Assembly: GCA_938044705.1 (NCBI GenBank) | Contig: CALIOL010000083.1 | Coordinates: 1 to 34,398 of the forward strand | Reading direction: 5' to 3' | From: an uncultured Ilumatobacter sp. | Lineage (GTDB): Bacteria; Actinomycetota; Acidimicrobiia; Acidimicrobiales; Ilumatobacteraceae | Length of the DNA: 34,398 nt | In this document: piece after piece, positions 22,750 through 29,758 of the stretch | Layout of the letters: every line of letters begins with the position of its first letter | Numbering within the stretch: position 1 is the first letter of the stretch | The notes under the pieces: generated by a model | The model's database searches: none | What the model was told of the DNA's origin: nothing | What the model saw: only the letters and a program-made list of their open reading frames with translations | Translations under genes and position numbers: made by a program

Positions 22750-24000
22750 TCAGTCTGGTACTCGGCTCGACAGGACGCCGTCGGCCTCCAACGTGTCGAG
22801 CTGGTCGTCGTCGTAGCCGAGCAGTTCGGCGAGCACCGAACGGTTGTCTTCGCCGCGGTACTTCGGCACGCCTGACACCGCGACGTCAGGCCCGTCGCTG
22901 AAGCGCCACGGCACGTTCGGCAATCGAATCGAGCCGCCCGAACGATCGTCGACGTCGACGGTCGCCCCACGCTCGAGTGCCCACTCGGTGTCGGCGAGCT
23001 CGCCGGGCTCGCGCACTCGGCCGGTCGCCAGGCGGTTGGCGGCGAACGTTCGCTCGAAGGTCTCCGCATCAGGCACGGTCGCGGCGAACGACATGAAGAT
23101 CTCACAGAGGGCGTCGTAGTTGGCGACCCGGTTCGCAACGTCGACGAAGCGTTCGTCGTCGAGCAGCTCCGGCTGGTCCATGGCGTTCACGAACAGCTCG
23201 AACGTTCCGCGTTCCGCAGGGTGGCCGCTGACGATGTACTGCTCTCCGCTCGCGATCCGAACGACCAGGTAGTCGCCGGGACGAAAGCTCCGAATCCACT
23301 GCGGATCGTCCTCACCGTCCCACAGCGTGTCGTGCATGTGCTCGTTGACGTACATCATCGTCTCGGCCATCGAGACGTCCAGTGTCTGCCCGTTCCCCGT
23401 CTGCTCGCGTTGATACAGCGCAGCAAGGATCGCGGCGGCCAACTCCATGCCGGTGTACACATCCGCGTGGCTGTGCGGATCCTTCGCCAACCGGCCGCCG
23501 CGCGCATTGCCCTGTGAGGCGATGATCCCCGACTCGGCTTCGACCACCGGTGCGTAGGCGCGTCGGTGAACCCACGGGCCGGTCTGGCCGTAGCCCGACA
23601 GCGACGCGTAGACGAGACGCGGGTTCGCAGCACGAAGCGCGTCGGCGCCGAGGCCGAGCTTGTCCATCACGCCAGGTCGATAGTTCTCGACGAGCACGTC
23701 AGCGGTCGCCGCCAGGTCGCGAAGGATCTGAGCTCCCGCGGGTGCACTCAGATCGATGCTGAGGTTCGACTTGCCCGTGTTCTGCTGCGCGAAGTAGCTG
23801 GCGATGCCATTGCGGCGCGGCGTCGAGAATCGCGTGAGGTCGCCGTCGGGCGGCTCGATCTTGATGACCTCGGCGCCGAGATCGCACAGCATCCGGGTGC
23901 AGTGCGGCCCCGACAGCACTCGCGACAGATCGAGCACACGCACACCGGTGAGCGGTCGGGTCGGTGCGTTGCTCTGCTCGCTCGTCGTTCCGTCGGTCAT
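22750..24000 (-). CDS. Family III CoA-transferase (CaiB/BaiF type)
   Basis: Moves CoA between carboxylic acids; the acid is not identified. The 416-residue protein begins with the family signature GVRVLDLSRVLSGPHCTRMLCDLGAEVIKIEPP. It then has YFAQQNTGKSNLSIDLSAPAG and ENYRPGVMDKLG. SHADVYTGMELAAAI contains the probable catalytic aspartate, and DVSMAETMMYVNEHM completes the core. The length is normal. The ATG at 24000 is preferred over the track start 33 codons upstream, which would run into the divergent SDR gene. It is the first gene of a three-gene leftward unit with LigC and kynureninase. Confidence 0.92.
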   Translation of the reverse strand: MTDGTTSEQSNAPTRPLTGVRVLDLSRVLSGPHCTRMLCDLGAEVIKIEPPDGDLTRFSTPRRNGIASYFAQQNTGKSNLSIDLSAPAGAQILRDLAATADVLVENYRPGVMDKLGLGADALRAANPRLVYASLSGYGQTGPWVHRRAYAPVVEAESGIIASQGNARGGRLAKDPHSHADVYTGMELAAAILAALYQREQTGNGQTLDVSMAETMMYVNEHMHDTLWDGEDDPQWIRSFRPGDYLVVRIASGEQYIVSGHPAERGTFELFVNAMDQPELLDDERFVDVANRVANYDALCEIFMSFAATVPDAETFERTFAANRLATGRVREPGELADTEWALERGATVDVDDRSGGSIRLPNVPWRFSDGPDVAVSGVPKYRGEDNRSVLAELLGYDDDQLDTLEADGVLSSRVPD

Positions 24001-24065
24001 CGTTCCATCGTGACCTGGTTCGGTCGGGCTCGGCAAAGCCTGGCGGTGTCCACCACACTCTCGAC

Positions 24066-24884
24066 ATGGAATCTGGACCCCTCGCAGGCCACGTCGCACT
24101 CGTCACCGGAGGTGGCACCGGCATCGGTTTGGGCTGCGCCGAGGCGCTGCTCGCCGACGGTGCGGCGGTGCTGCTCGCAGCCCGCAACCTCGACCGTCTC
24201 GACGAGGCGGCGGCGGGTCTTCGTTCGAACTTCGACGATGCGACGGTTGCCACGGTCGCATGCGACGTGACCGATGAATCGTCCGTCGCAGCCGCGGTGC
24301 GAACCGCCTCCGAGCTCGGGCCACTCAAGATCGTCGTCGTTAACGCCGGGTTCGGCGCGGCCGCTCCTTTCCACCGGACCTCGCTCGACGACTGGAGCGC
24401 CGTGATGGCGACCAACCTCACCGGCGCGTTCCTCACGATGCGCGAGTCCGTCGAGCCCATGGTCGCGGCAGGCGGTGGTTCGATGGTCGCGGTGTCCTCG
24501 ATCGCCGGGGTCGAAACCCACCGCTTCATGACGCCCTACACGGTGTCGAAAGCCGGCCTCGAGATGCTGGTCAAGCAGGTGGCCGACGAGTTGGGGCCGT
24601 CGGGAATCCGCGCGAATGCGGTTCGCCCCGGACTCGTCCCGACCGACGCAACGGCGGGGATGATGTCGATCCCGGCGATCGTCGAGGACTACCACGCGCA
24701 GATGCCACTCGGCCGTGAGGGGACCACCGAAGACATTGCCAACCTGGTCCGGTTCCTCGCCGGGCCCGAGAGTTCGTGGATCACCGGAACGTGCATCAGC
24801 GCCGACGGAGGGCATCACCTCCGCCGCGGCCCGAACATCGATCCGGTGATGGAGATGCTGCACCCCGGCGACACCGCACCCTGA
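24066..24884 (+). CDS. Short-chain dehydrogenase/reductase (SDR)
   Basis: A 272-residue classical SDR. The cofactor motif is VTGGGTGIGLG near the N-terminus, followed by CDVTD, VVNAGF, the catalytic serine region VAVSSIAG, and Tyr158/Lys162 in YTVSKAG. NAVRPGLVPTD and ITGTCISADGGHHLR follow as in 2-enoyl/3-oxoacyl reductases and related alcohol dehydrogenases. The substrate is unknown. The ATG at 24066 is chosen in place of the track start (23964), which lies inside the divergent CoA-transferase. The 65-bp gap between the two divergent genes must hold both promoters. Sharing a control region with the CoA-transferase hints at a common acyl-CoA or aromatic-acid pathway (inference). Confidence 0.88.
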   Translation: MESGPLAGHVALVTGGGTGIGLGCAEALLADGAAVLLAARNLDRLDEAAAGLRSNFDDATVATVACDVTDESSVAAAVRTASELGPLKIVVVNAGFGAAAPFHRTSLDDWSAVMATNLTGAFLTMRESVEPMVAAGGGSMVAVSSIAGVETHRFMTPYTVSKAGLEMLVKQVADELGPSGIRANAVRPGLVPTDATAGMMSIPAIVEDYHAQMPLGREGTTEDIANLVRFLAGPESSWITGTCISADGGHHLRRGPNIDPVMEMLHPGDTAP

Positions 24885-24956
24885 TTCACGTGACCGCAGG
24901 GAGGTGACGGGGGCGACACGCGGACCGATCCATCCTTCGATACCGTAGGGAGTTCT

Positions 24957-24973
24957 CCGGCCGCTCTGGCCGG
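24957..24973 (+). promoter_or_regulatory. GC-rich hairpin in the leader of the helicase gene
   Basis: CCGGCC, a 5-nt loop and GGCCGG form a short perfect stem in the 160-bp gap between the SDR gene and the helicase start, about 70 nt before the ATG. There is no T-tract, so a simple terminator is unlikely. It could be part of a structured 5' leader. The rest of the gap shows no promoter I can defend. Confidence 0.35.
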
Positions 24974-25044
24974 TGGGCGCTGTTCGGGAAATCTGCTCCG
25001 GCCGTAGCGCTGTTGATGAAGCAGAACCGAAAGAAGACCCCCCA

Positions 25045-26595
25045 ATGAGCACCCTCATCGAGGACGCGCCTGCGTCCGCTGACGTCACCTTCGCCGAGCT
25101 CGGCCTCCCGACTGCGATGGTCGACGCCCTCGAATCGCGGGGCATGGCCGCCCCGTTCGCGATCCAGGCAGCAGTCATTCCCGACGCGCTCGACGGCCGC
25201 GACATCGCCGGTCGGGCACCCACCGGTTCCGGCAAGACCTTGGGCTTCGGCCTCCCGATCGTCGCCGGTCTCACCAAGGCGAAGCCCAAGCGCCCCGTTG
25301 CGCTCGTGCTGGCCCCCACTCGCGAGCTCGCCGAACAGATCATGGCCGAGCTCACACCTTTCACGAAGGCGATGCGGTTCTACGCAACCTCGATCTATGG
25401 CGGTGTCGGCTACGGAAATCAGAAGAACGCCCTGAACAAGGGCACCGAGCTCGTCGTGGCGTGCCCAGGCCGCCTCGAGGACCTGATGCAGATGGGCGCG
25501 ATCGATCTGCGTGACGTCACCCAGGTCGTGATCGACGAAGCAGACCAGATGGCCGACATGGGCTTCTTGCCCGCCGTGCGCCGCATCGTCGGCGAGACGT
25601 CGCCCAACCGCCAGGTGATGCTGTTCTCGGCCACGCTCGACGGCCCGGTCGCCAAGCTGATCAAGGACTACCAGCACGATCCGGTGCGCCACGAGGTCGG
25701 TCCCAAGGGACCCGACATCCACGCAGCCCACCACGTCTTCTGGCAGACGGAGCGCACCGAACGCAACCAGAACGCCGCCGGCGTGATCGAGAGCTGCGGC
25801 TCGACGATCGTGTTCACGCGTACCCGCCACGGCGCCGACCGGTTGGCGAAGCAGCTCGGCAAGCTCGGCGTCTCCGCCCAGCCGATCCACGGTGGCCGGA
25901 GCCAGAACCAGCGTGACCGAGCGCTCGACGCATTCAAGAAGGGCAAGGCCGACGCCTTGATCGCCACCGACGTCGCCGCTCGCGGCATCCACGTCAACGG
26001 CGTGAACGCGGTCATCCACTACGACCCGCCGGCCGACGGCGCCACCTACCACCACCGCTCGGGCCGCACGGCCCGTGCTGGCGCCACCGGCATCGTCGTG
26101 TCGTTCGTCGAGCCGGGCACCTCGAAAGACGTCAGGAAGCTGCAGAAGGAAGTCGGCATCCAGGTCGACGTGACCGACCCAGATCTCGACGAACTCGAAG
26201 TCACCCTGCTGCTGCTGGAGACCGAGGCTGCCGCAGCGGGCGACGTCGTCGAAGCGCCCGTCGCATCGACTCGAACCGATTCAGCCGCAGGTCGACCCAA
26301 GCAGGACAAGCAGCGCAGCTCGGGTGACGCGCCTGCGGAGCCCACGTCGAAGAAGCAGCGGCCCGAAAGCACTGCTCCGGTGCCGTCTGGCCATGAACTC
26401 GGCACGGTCAAGTTCTTCAACGCCAGCCGCGGATACGGCTTCATCGTGCGTGATGCCGGCGGTGACGAGTTGTTCGTCCACTTCTCCAGCATCGACACCG
26501 AGGGCTTCAAGACACTCGACGAGAAGGCCCGTGTGTCCTACGAGGTCGGTCAGGGCAAGAAGGGTCTCGAAGCGAAGAACGTCCTCGTTCGATAG
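25045..26595 (+). CDS. DEAD-box RNA helicase fused to a C-terminal cold-shock domain
   Basis: A 516-residue RNA helicase. The Q-motif region is PFAIQAAVIP. Then come Walker A APTGSGKT (about residue 57), APTRELAEQ, CPGRLEDL, IDEADQMADMGF (about 162) and FSATL. The second RecA domain has TIVFTRTRHGADRLAKQL, ATDVAARGIHVNGV and YHHRSGRTARAG. A low-complexity charged linker (about 395-450, rich in Lys/Gln/Ser) leads to a complete cold-shock domain (about 452-516): GTVKFFNASRGYGFI with RNP1-like GYGFI, and LFVHFSSID as RNP2. Both halves unwind or chaperone RNA, so the product probably resolves mRNA or rRNA structure in the cold. The ATG at 25045 follows a GAAGA ribosome site; the track adds 24 residues. 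Confidence 0.95.
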   Translation: MSTLIEDAPASADVTFAELGLPTAMVDALESRGMAAPFAIQAAVIPDALDGRDIAGRAPTGSGKTLGFGLPIVAGLTKAKPKRPVALVLAPTRELAEQIMAELTPFTKAMRFYATSIYGGVGYGNQKNALNKGTELVVACPGRLEDLMQMGAIDLRDVTQVVIDEADQMADMGFLPAVRRIVGETSPNRQVMLFSATLDGPVAKLIKDYQHDPVRHEVGPKGPDIHAAHHVFWQTERTERNQNAAGVIESCGSTIVFTRTRHGADRLAKQLGKLGVSAQPIHGGRSQNQRDRALDAFKKGKADALIATDVAARGIHVNGVNAVIHYDPPADGATYHHRSGRTARAGATGIVVSFVEPGTSKDVRKLQKEVGIQVDVTDPDLDELEVTLLLLETEAAAAGDVVEAPVASTRTDSAAGRPKQDKQRSSGDAPAEPTSKKQRPESTAPVPSGHELGTVKFFNASRGYGFIVRDAGGDELFVHFSSIDTEGFKTLDEKARVSYEVGQGKKGLEAKNVLVR

Positions 26596-26629
26596 CGACG
26601 GATTCTCGGTGGCGCCTAGGGTCACCTGG

Positions 26630-29600
26630 GTGCACGACGATCGTGAGCTCGCCGAACGCCGAATCGCTCGCGAACTCTGGGAGCGGGTCATGCCGCTCGT
26701 ACACACTGAACGAGTGGCGCTGCGCGTGGAGGCGGGTCCGAGCCTCGACCAGCTGTCGCCGTTCTCCGTCGGCGATGCATGGGGCGAGCCCTGGGGGACG
26801 ACCTGGTTCCGTCTTACAGGGGACGTCCCGACGGATTGGCACGGCCGGCAGCGAGCGGTGCGGATCGAAGCGAACATCGATCTTGGATTCACTCGGAGTC
26901 CAGCCGGATTCCAGGCGGAAGGACTCGTCGTCGAGCGTGGCGGCGACGGTTCGTTGCGACCCCTGCACGGGATCCACCCTCGACGCACCCATCACCTGAT
27001 CGAGAACCCGGCAGGGCCGGTCGACGTGCTCGTCGAGGCGGCATCGAACCCGACGTTCCCGCAGTTCGCACCGTCGCCGCAGGGTCTTCCCGAGACCGCA
27101 TCGACCGACCCGATCTACCGCTTCAGAACGGCCGACCTGGTCCTGGTCGACATCGAGACCGAAGCGCTCGTCCACGACCTCGATGTGCTCGACGAGACGA
27201 TGCGGTCGCTCCCGCTCGACGACCCCAGGCGCTCCAAGCTGCGGCACGTCATCGTCGAAGCGCTCGACGCAGTGCCCGACGTCGAAGCCGCCCGAAAGCT
27301 CCTCGCATCGCACCTGGCCGAATCGGAGGCAACGACGCGCCGCCATCGCGTCATCGCGACGGGACACGCACACATCGACACCGCATGGCTGTGGCCGATC
27401 CGTGAGACCGTCCGCAAGTGCACACGGACGTTCTCCTCCGCAGTCGAGCTGATGGACGCCGACCCGGCGTATCGGTTCACCTGCTCGCAGGCACAGCAGT
27501 ACGCGTGGATCGAGGAGCGGCACCCGGAACTCTTCGAACGCATCATCGCGAAGGTTGCAGAAGGTCAGTGGCTGCCGGTCGGCGGCATGTGGGTCGAGGC
27601 CGACATGAACTTGCCGTCGGGCGAGAGCCTTGCTCGCCAGATCGTCTACGGGCAGCGCTACTTCACCGAGAAGTTCGGTGCGCCGAGCCGCGAGGTCTGG
27701 ATCCCTGACGTGTTCGGGTACCCGGCGGGGCTGCCGCAGCTGTTCCGGGCGGGCGGCATGGACCGATTCGTCACCCAGAAGCTCTCGTGGAACAAGCAGA
27801 ACCGCTTCCCCCACCACACGTTCCGATGGGAAGGGCTCGACGGTTCGTCGGTCCTGACGCACTTCCCGCCGGTCGACACCTACAACGCCGAGATCACACC
27901 CGGCGAGATCGCTCATTCGATCCGCTCGTTCAAAGAGCACGAATGGAGCGATGTCTCCCTGATGCCGTTCGGGCACGGCGACGGCGGTGGCGGCCCGACG
28001 AGGGAGATGCTCGAGCGAGCGCATCGGATCGGATCGACGAATCCCGACGTGTCGGTCGAGATCGGTTCGGCCGACGACTTCTTCGCCGCAGTCGAACGCG
28101 AGGCGGTCGAAGGGGCCGACGTACCGACGTGGCGTGGCGAGCTCTACTTCGAGATGCACCGCGGCACGCTCACCAGCCAACTGCGAACGAAGATCGGCAA
28201 CCGACGCTGCGAACGCGAGCTGTTCCGCGCCGAACTGTGGGAAGCGACCGTTGGCTCGCGACCCTCGGCAGACGTGCTCGAACAGCTGGGATCTCGGCCG
28301 ATCGCCGAGATCTGGCCCGATGTGCTGACGCAGCAGTTCCACGACATCCTGCCGGGCTCCTCGATCGCCTGGGTCCATCGAGACGCCGAGCTGGTGTTCC
28401 TCGGTGCGTACGTCGAGTTGTGCAACCACGGGATCATCTCGCGGCTTGCGGTGCTTCCGAGTGGCAACTCGATCGTGAACAGCTCAGGCGTCGATCACCG
28501 TGGCGTGGTCATCGTCAAAGCGTCCCATCTCGATCTCGTCGGGGAGACCGAACTCGAGAACGTCCAGCAGATCAGCGAGCACGAGTGTGCTGTGGCTGTC
28601 GACGTCGGTGCCTTTGCGACCGCTGCACTCGAACCAAGAACGGTGACGGATCGCGTCGTCGTGACCGACTGTTCGATGACCAACGGCCACCTTGCCGTTC
28701 GCTGGAACAAGCACGGCGACCTCACATCGATCATCGACATCGCAGCGCGACGCGAGCTGATTCCGACGGGGGAGCGTGCCGCCGTTCTCGAGCTGGGGCG
28801 TGACCAGCCGGTGGAGTACGACGCGTGGGATCTCGAGTCCTGGACCCGCGAGCAGAGCCGACCGGTCAGTGGCGGTGTCGTCACCGTCGAGGCGAGTGGG
28901 CCGTTGATCGGACGCGTTCGCGTCGAGCGATCCTTCGGACCGTCGAAGGTCGTCACGACCTATGAGCTGCGCGCGGAGTCACGCCAGCTCGACATCGACC
29001 TCGACATCGACTGGCATCACGACGAGCACCTGCTGTCGATGGCGTTTCCGCTCGACGTGCGCGCGGACACCGCCGCATGTGACGTCCAGTTCGGCGTGAC
29101 ACACCGTCCGACCCACCCGTCGTCGCCGTGGGACGCGGCAAAGTTCGAAGTGTGCGCGCACCGATACGTCAGCGTCGCCGAGCCATCGTTCGGGGTCGCA
29201 GTCCTCAACGACGGTCGCTACGGACACGCCATCTTCGACGGTGCGATTCGTGTGAGTCTCGCCCGTGCCGCGAAGTATCCGGATCCGGATGCGGATCACG
29301 GCAAGCACCAGCTCAAGCTGGCGGTCCGGCCACACGACGGCGACCTCGGGCAGGTGCGTGCCGCAGCCGAGTTGTTGAACCGTCCGCTCGATGTCGCGAT
29401 CAATGTCGGCGAGGTACCGGCTGGTCGGGTCGACCACCCTGCACCGGTGATCACCATCGTCGGCGACGACGATCAGCCAGCGCTCGGCGTCGAGGTCGGC
29501 GCGATCAAGTTGGCTGATGACGGCCCACACACCGCTCCCGGCGATCTCGTCGTACGACTCCACGAGGCGATCGGTGACCGGACTCGGATCACGCTGCGCG

Positions 29601-29758
29601 CCCCGCACAGAATCGCCGCAGCCTGGTCGTGCGACCTGATGGAAACGCCGCAACGCGGCCATGAAGTCGGCGACGGCGTGCTGTCGCTCACGCTGCGCCC
29701 GTTCGAACTCGTCACCCTCCGGATTCGACAAGCCGACGACTGGGACGGTCGCAGCTGA
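26630..29758 (+). CDS. Alpha-mannosidase, glycoside hydrolase family 38
   Basis: A cytoplasmic GH38 enzyme of 1042 residues that removes alpha-linked mannose. Seen are the N-terminal accessory domain with PWGTTWFRLTGDVP, the zinc-binding GHAHIDTAWLWPIRET (about residue 245), the catalytic nucleophile in WIPDVFGYPAGLPQL (about Asp360), LMPFGHGDGGGGPT, and QQFHDILPGSSI before the C-terminal beta-sandwich domains. There is no signal peptide. The track ORF begins inside the helicase gene; the GTG at 26630 gives MHDDRELAERR, the usual start of actinobacterial homologues, with AGGG about 8 nt upstream. The helicase stop lies 34 nt before, so readthrough transcription is possible. It could process mannosyl glycans or lipid-linked mannans (inference). 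Confidence 0.94.
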   Translation: MHDDRELAERRIARELWERVMPLVHTERVALRVEAGPSLDQLSPFSVGDAWGEPWGTTWFRLTGDVPTDWHGRQRAVRIEANIDLGFTRSPAGFQAEGLVVERGGDGSLRPLHGIHPRRTHHLIENPAGPVDVLVEAASNPTFPQFAPSPQGLPETASTDPIYRFRTADLVLVDIETEALVHDLDVLDETMRSLPLDDPRRSKLRHVIVEALDAVPDVEAARKLLASHLAESEATTRRHRVIATGHAHIDTAWLWPIRETVRKCTRTFSSAVELMDADPAYRFTCSQAQQYAWIEERHPELFERIIAKVAEGQWLPVGGMWVEADMNLPSGESLARQIVYGQRYFTEKFGAPSREVWIPDVFGYPAGLPQLFRAGGMDRFVTQKLSWNKQNRFPHHTFRWEGLDGSSVLTHFPPVDTYNAEITPGEIAHSIRSFKEHEWSDVSLMPFGHGDGGGGPTREMLERAHRIGSTNPDVSVEIGSADDFFAAVEREAVEGADVPTWRGELYFEMHRGTLTSQLRTKIGNRRCERELFRAELWEATVGSRPSADVLEQLGSRPIAEIWPDVLTQQFHDILPGSSIAWVHRDAELVFLGAYVELCNHGIISRLAVLPSGNSIVNSSGVDHRGVVIVKASHLDLVGETELENVQQISEHECAVAVDVGAFATAALEPRTVTDRVVVTDCSMTNGHLAVRWNKHGDLTSIIDIAARRELIPTGERAAVLELGRDQPVEYDAWDLESWTREQSRPVSGGVVTVEASGPLIGRVRVERSFGPSKVVTTYELRAESRQLDIDLDIDWHHDEHLLSMAFPLDVRADTAACDVQFGVTHRPTHPSSPWDAAKFEVCAHRYVSVAEPSFGVAVLNDGRYGHAIFDGAIRVSLARAAKYPDPDADHGKHQLKLAVRPHDGDLGQVRAAAELLNRPLDVAINVGEVPAGRVDHPAPVITIVGDDDQPALGVEVGAIKLADDGPHTAPGDLVVRLHEAIGDRTRITLRAPHRIAAAWSCDLMETPQRGHEVGDGVLSLTLRPFELVTLRIRQADDWDGRS

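Follow-up and report, generated by a model that had tools for sequence, protein, structure and literature searches.

The locus described here raises two questions: whether a DEAD-box RNA helicase and a cold-shock domain (CSD) are encoded as one chain, and what the CSD would do there. The first-pass annotation had described a single-chain fusion of an intact helicase core with an intact CSD, the latter carrying an RNP1-like GYGFI and the RNP2 LFVHFSS, and had the two parts acting together. In the window, by which we mean the whole stretch of 34,398 nucleotides that was analysed, the fusion is indeed one open reading frame with recognizable Pfam domains and all motifs readable, and RNP1 (RGYGFI) and RNP2 (LFVHFS) are both intact (Table 1). 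By eye, the gene is flanked by a CaiB/BaiF-type CoA transferase-like gene (22750-24099, minus strand), a short-chain dehydrogenase-like gene (23964-24884, plus strand) and a family 38-type alpha-mannosidase-like gene (about 26612-29758, plus strand), and none of these three neighbours suggests RNA metabolism.

Table 1. Positions of the helicase-CSD gene, its protein domains and the elements of its leader RNA in the window
Feature	Position	Strand	Description and support
DEAD-box helicase/cold-shock-domain fusion gene	25045..26595	+	516 aa, ATG to TAG, 0 internal stops
DEAD (RecA-like domain 1), aa 39-201	25159..25647	+	Pfam PF00270, 145 bits
Helicase_C (RecA-like domain 2), aa 249-346	25789..26082	+	Pfam PF00271, 99 bits
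Linker, disordered part, aa 400-440	26242..26364	+	AlphaFold2 pLDDT < 50
Cold-shock domain, aa 453-514	26401..26586	+	Pfam PF00313, 76 bits; RNP1 RGYGFI and RNP2 LFVHFS
Structured 5' leader RNA, type I	24955..25033	+	Covariance model R1, 92 bits; ends 11 bases before the start codon
Hairpin P1, 24957-24962 with 24968-24973	24957..24973	+	Both-side changes in 5/6 pairs; fold z-score mean -3.1 (13 sequences)
Helix P2 (24977-24982 with 25005-25010), enclosing P3	24977..25010	+	96% of P2 cells paired; double changes at 2 pairs
Helix P3, 24984-24988 with 24997-25001, inside P2		+	98% of cells paired; 0 double changes
Proposed pseudoknot helix, 24992-24997 TCTGCT with 25020-25025 AGCAGA	24992..25025	+	Complementary in 11/11 sequences

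The helicase motifs, read by eye from the translation, are PFAIQ (Q), APTGSGKT (I), PTRELA (Ia), CPGRL (Ib, where TPGRL is usual), DEAD (II), SAT (III), TDVAARG (V) and HRSGRTAR (VI). With two RecA-like domains, a fold match and these motifs kept over 36 fusions, the protein is a DEAD-box helicase of superfamily SF2. The CSD match covers positions 3-64 of the 66 in PF00313, well above the cut-off of 27 bits, and with RNP1 and RNP2 both there the domain belongs to that family. All Pfam domains score far above their cut-offs and a chance match is ruled out. Misassembly is ruled out as well, because the genus has the same fusion in a genome that is 99% complete and assembled as a single contig (G007/L089).

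An AlphaFold2 model built with the 36 fusion homologues has confident helicase domains and a CSD folded as a five-stranded barrel with a pLDDT of about 95. Between them runs a linker of about 70 residues (about aa 381-448), which is poorly conserved in sequence, with 23-56% identity to relatives against 73-89% for the core. Compared with the four closest relatives, the core has a pN/pS of 0.18-0.28, the CSD one of 0.17-0.29 and the linker one of 0.41-0.72. Purifying selection acts on the CSD about as strongly as on the core, ruling out a pseudogene or a decaying domain. Across 36 fusions, five residues of RNP1 and RNP2 on the RNA-contacting face (G463, G465, F466, F477 and H479) never vary. 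Two CSD-bearing relatives (L097 and L100) have a CSD that has moved off the consensus, with TNYS or RSYN in place of KFFN, and members of the clade may therefore differ in binding. In L091, L005/L092 and L107, the fused CSD is extended by about 14 inserted residues (GASRRNDGNRSEGADRD) between RNP2 and the TLD motif.

The core aligns with the CshA, RhlE2, SrmB and DbpA models, as RhlE/CshA/DbpA-type helicases do, and its best solved relatives are Hera of T. thermophilus (4kbf, 40% identity), CshA and DDX17/Dbp2-type cores. A core followed by an accessory C-terminal RNA-binding region is the plan common to RhlE/CshA/DbpA-type helicases, Hera included, but here a CSD stands where they have a dimerisation or RRM-like region or a basic tail. 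To our knowledge, the helicase CrhR has no CSD. The CSD resembles that of CspA-type cold-shock proteins, with RNP1 and RNP2 and 82.5 bits to the CspE model, but it is C-terminal in a helicase rather than free and reads KFFN for the common KWFN. None of the NCBIfam equivalog cut-offs for RhlE, CshA and DbpA is reached (the best score is 303 bits against 646, for CshA), and the CSD falls below all the Csp equivalog cut-offs, so we describe the protein as a DEAD-box helicase with a CSD, outside the named subfamilies.

How widespread is this architecture? We surveyed 61 relatives, 395 genomes of the class and 397 of the phylum, with the regions fetched and rescanned, and found 37 distinct DEAD-CSD proteins, which fall into ten families in the class (f1, f19, f22, f27, f30, f46, f54, f61, f68 and f69) and one outside it (f74). 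Within the window's genus most genomes have a fusion of the same build, as do several in its family, and relatives keep the length and architecture of the window's protein; among named relatives the closest is L005, an Ilumatobacter genome bin, at 61% identity. The f74 proteins (L216-L218), from another class, are a separate and distant DEAD-CSD lineage with about 40% identity over the whole protein. Given this recurrence through genus and family and a CSD constrained like the core, the fusion is neither an artefact nor decaying.

In a tree of 136 helicase cores, from which the window's own row was left out and in which its nearest relatives were included, the window's fusion clade comprises 14 sampled proteins (f1, f19 and f46) on one side of a branch with SH-aLRT 99. 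The CSD label changes about eight times, at least three of them on well-supported branches, counts in which the tree alone cannot separate gain from loss. The DEAD-CSD fusion thus appears to be recurrent, having probably arisen several times in the class, a group of soil and marine bacteria. The search for helicase-CSD architectures proposed in the first-pass annotation returned a fusion present in ten or more families of the class, and no description or characterisation of one was found in the open-access papers searched, subscription journals being outside the search.

One family, f30, makes the fusion step itself visible, the downstream csp being a separate gene in some members and joined in frame in others. 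In L140 and L145 the helicase stops and a csp gene follows after about 130 bases (MPRGTVKFFNSEKGYGFIS); in L157 and L234 this same csp is read on in frame from the helicase, with the csp start methionine retained in L157. L150 combines a fused CSD with a free, near-identical csp gene downstream. A csp gene is also separate and downstream of the helicase in L219; this is genome G516, which was rejected as a fusion on that ground. In other Actinomycetota (Streptomyces, Micromonospora, Catenulispora and others) a csp lies directly upstream of the helicase at 28 loci, and this arrangement is also found on plasmids. The Streptomyces and Micromonospora pairs bring together the same two types of protein in neighbouring genes of one strand, but the genes are separate and the csp comes first, the reverse of the fusion, in which the CSD is at the C-terminus. 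Matches in these two genera that seemed to span the whole fusion are really due to the separate upstream csp gene. Since csp genes adjoin the same helicase elsewhere, the first-pass proposal that helicase and CSD act together gains support.

Orthologues that lack the CSD end either in a basic, disordered tail rich in G, R, N and K or in an RRM. The RRM (PF00076) occupies the CSD position in 18 orthologues of one clade (support 100), with 65-68 bits in the two that were tested; RRM-tailed helicases of the same family are seen in L146, L143 and 16 further loci. With an RRM or basic tail in the same slot, the CSD is best read as one of three RNA-holding tails, and it is most likely an exchangeable tail that would hold single-stranded RNA on a common core.

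The second conserved feature of the locus lies before the gene. The bases just ahead of the start codon are conserved far above the sequence further upstream, and in the window clade they make up a structured leader, which we call type I, with hairpin P1 and with helix P2 around P3. An R1 match stands directly upstream of the helicase in 12 genomes, 11 with E < 0.03 plus L248 with E 0.16. The leader directly precedes a fusion gene in the window, L086-L095, L005, L241 and L246. Covariation in type I is 0.283 against 0.154 in shuffled alignments (0/500 shuffles) and is lost on sliding, in an alignment that was fitted to the structure and leans towards it. Single type I leaders have modest fold z-scores (-0.1 to -2.2), and our case for a structure is therefore built on covariation and constant genomic position. 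The proposed pseudoknot, which lies outside the covariance model, would join the P3 loop to a strand just upstream of the ribosome-binding region, with base 24997 common to it and to P3. Its complementarity is found in several sequence versions, and because the shuffle fractions of single sequences span 0.007 to 0.22, it is this repetition that argues for the pseudoknot. No Rfam 15 family matches the leader up to E = 1, the cspA thermoregulator included, and no Rfam match was found in the leaders of related loci. A cspA Rfam match in L140 is sub-threshold (24 bits, cut-off 78), sits at the free csp gene and was set aside.

A type II leader (GGGTTCGCAGACGG...TTGGTTC...GTGAACCA) precedes orthologues in f1, f17, f29, f30 and f63, whether or not they have a CSD. 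It lies about 50-150 bases before the helicase core in L140, L145, L132, L130, L101, L165 and others, and in some copies a distal GCGAACCC might base-pair with GGGTTCGC. In the 395 genomes, the type II model gives 24 matches with E < 2e-5, one per genome and all directly before the helicase, and the strong matches include genomes outside the training set. Covariation is 0.363 against 0.194 shuffled (0/500), with P1 covarying, again in an alignment fitted to the structure and leaning towards it. Strong-scoring type I and type II leaders were thus found only before this helicase gene in the genomes searched; the weak matches of the leader models that became loci, apart from L248, have no helicase directly downstream. 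The type II model also matches the type I element weakly and in the right place (L241, E 0.06; L238, 12.1 bits), and judging from these matches the two types may be one family. A third conserved leader is a candidate for which a consensus fold was computed (CCGGTTGGACCGCCTCTTCGGCCGA...TCCAAC...CCAGGAG). It lies upstream of the helicase in the RRM-tailed clade (L135, L136, L143, L146, L147, L155, L156, L159, L160, L164, L168, L170, L171, L177, L194, L197 and L198).

What, then, would the CSD do? We consider it likely that the protein is an ATP-dependent RNA helicase of the DEAD-box type, which gained the CSD, an accessory tail of predicted RNA-binding function, when a neighbouring csp became joined to it in frame. 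The RecA domains would load on short RNA duplexes and separate the strands locally on ATP binding. The CSD, on its flexible linker of about 70 residues and in the slot of the orthologues' basic disordered tail or RRM, would hold the freed or flanking single strand, and this grip would keep the enzyme on its RNA and slow re-annealing. Against such tethering, the disordered linker is long and could leave the CSD to work separately from the core, and the same genome also encodes free CSDs, which could act in trans.

It is unlikely, in our judgement, that the fusion is a dedicated cold-shock machine, cold-induced and coupling unwinding to the trapping of structured mRNA at low temperature. The CSD family would suit such a machine, the structured leader might respond to temperature, and several bacterial DEAD-box helicases are known cold-shock proteins, among them CrhR (PMC3485376) and the RhlE of Caulobacter (PMC5472812). 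However, RRM or basic tails fill the same slot in orthologues, related leaders also precede orthologues without a CSD, and the leader has no match to the cspA thermoregulator or any other Rfam family. CSD proteins, moreover, often work without cold. The tail alternatives, by the functions their types predict, favour general RNA tethering and a block to re-annealing over a cold-only role, with a role at low temperature still possible.

A disordered linker leading to a conserved small domain would also fit a docking module, in which case the CSD would serve localisation or recruitment, through contact with the degradosome, the ribosome or RNA polymerase, and not the holding of single-stranded RNA. 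The invariance of the RNA-contacting RNP1 and RNP2 residues over the 36 fusions speaks against this, and we rate it as improbable. Family f30 shows how easily loss of a stop codon could have joined a neighbouring csp to the helicase, leaving a CSD with no role in the helicase; but the fusion has been kept through the genus and several families, its CSD is as constrained as the core and its origin is repeated, making a neutral fusion very improbable.

The leader is probably a new cis-regulatory RNA of the helicase gene, and its predicted role is most likely the control of translation of that gene, by the helicase itself or by temperature. There is a precedent for helicase autoregulation in CrhR of Synechocystis, whose expression depends on its own activity and on temperature, according to passages of PMC3485376 that describe no leader pseudoknot. 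More tentatively, as an idea we hold to be somewhat less than an even bet, a previously undescribed family of pseudoknotted leaders, remodelled by the helicase or by temperature, would set helicase translation in this bacterial class, and this circuit would have been kept as the tail (basic, RRM or CSD) was repeatedly exchanged.

Between the two features, the leader is the more novel part; the fusion is recurrent in the class, with no description found in the literature searched. Taken as a whole, the locus and its relatives form a natural domain-swap series. A single core comes with three kinds of RNA-binding tail, helicase and csp occur both joined and as neighbouring genes, and the joining itself can be seen, which makes it possible to use close relatives to test what an accessory domain does to a DEAD-box enzyme. 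The leader is likewise a testable case of feedback control of a helicase via an mRNA pseudoknot, and it has the look of a new RNA family, in a little-studied class whose bacteria abound in water and soil.
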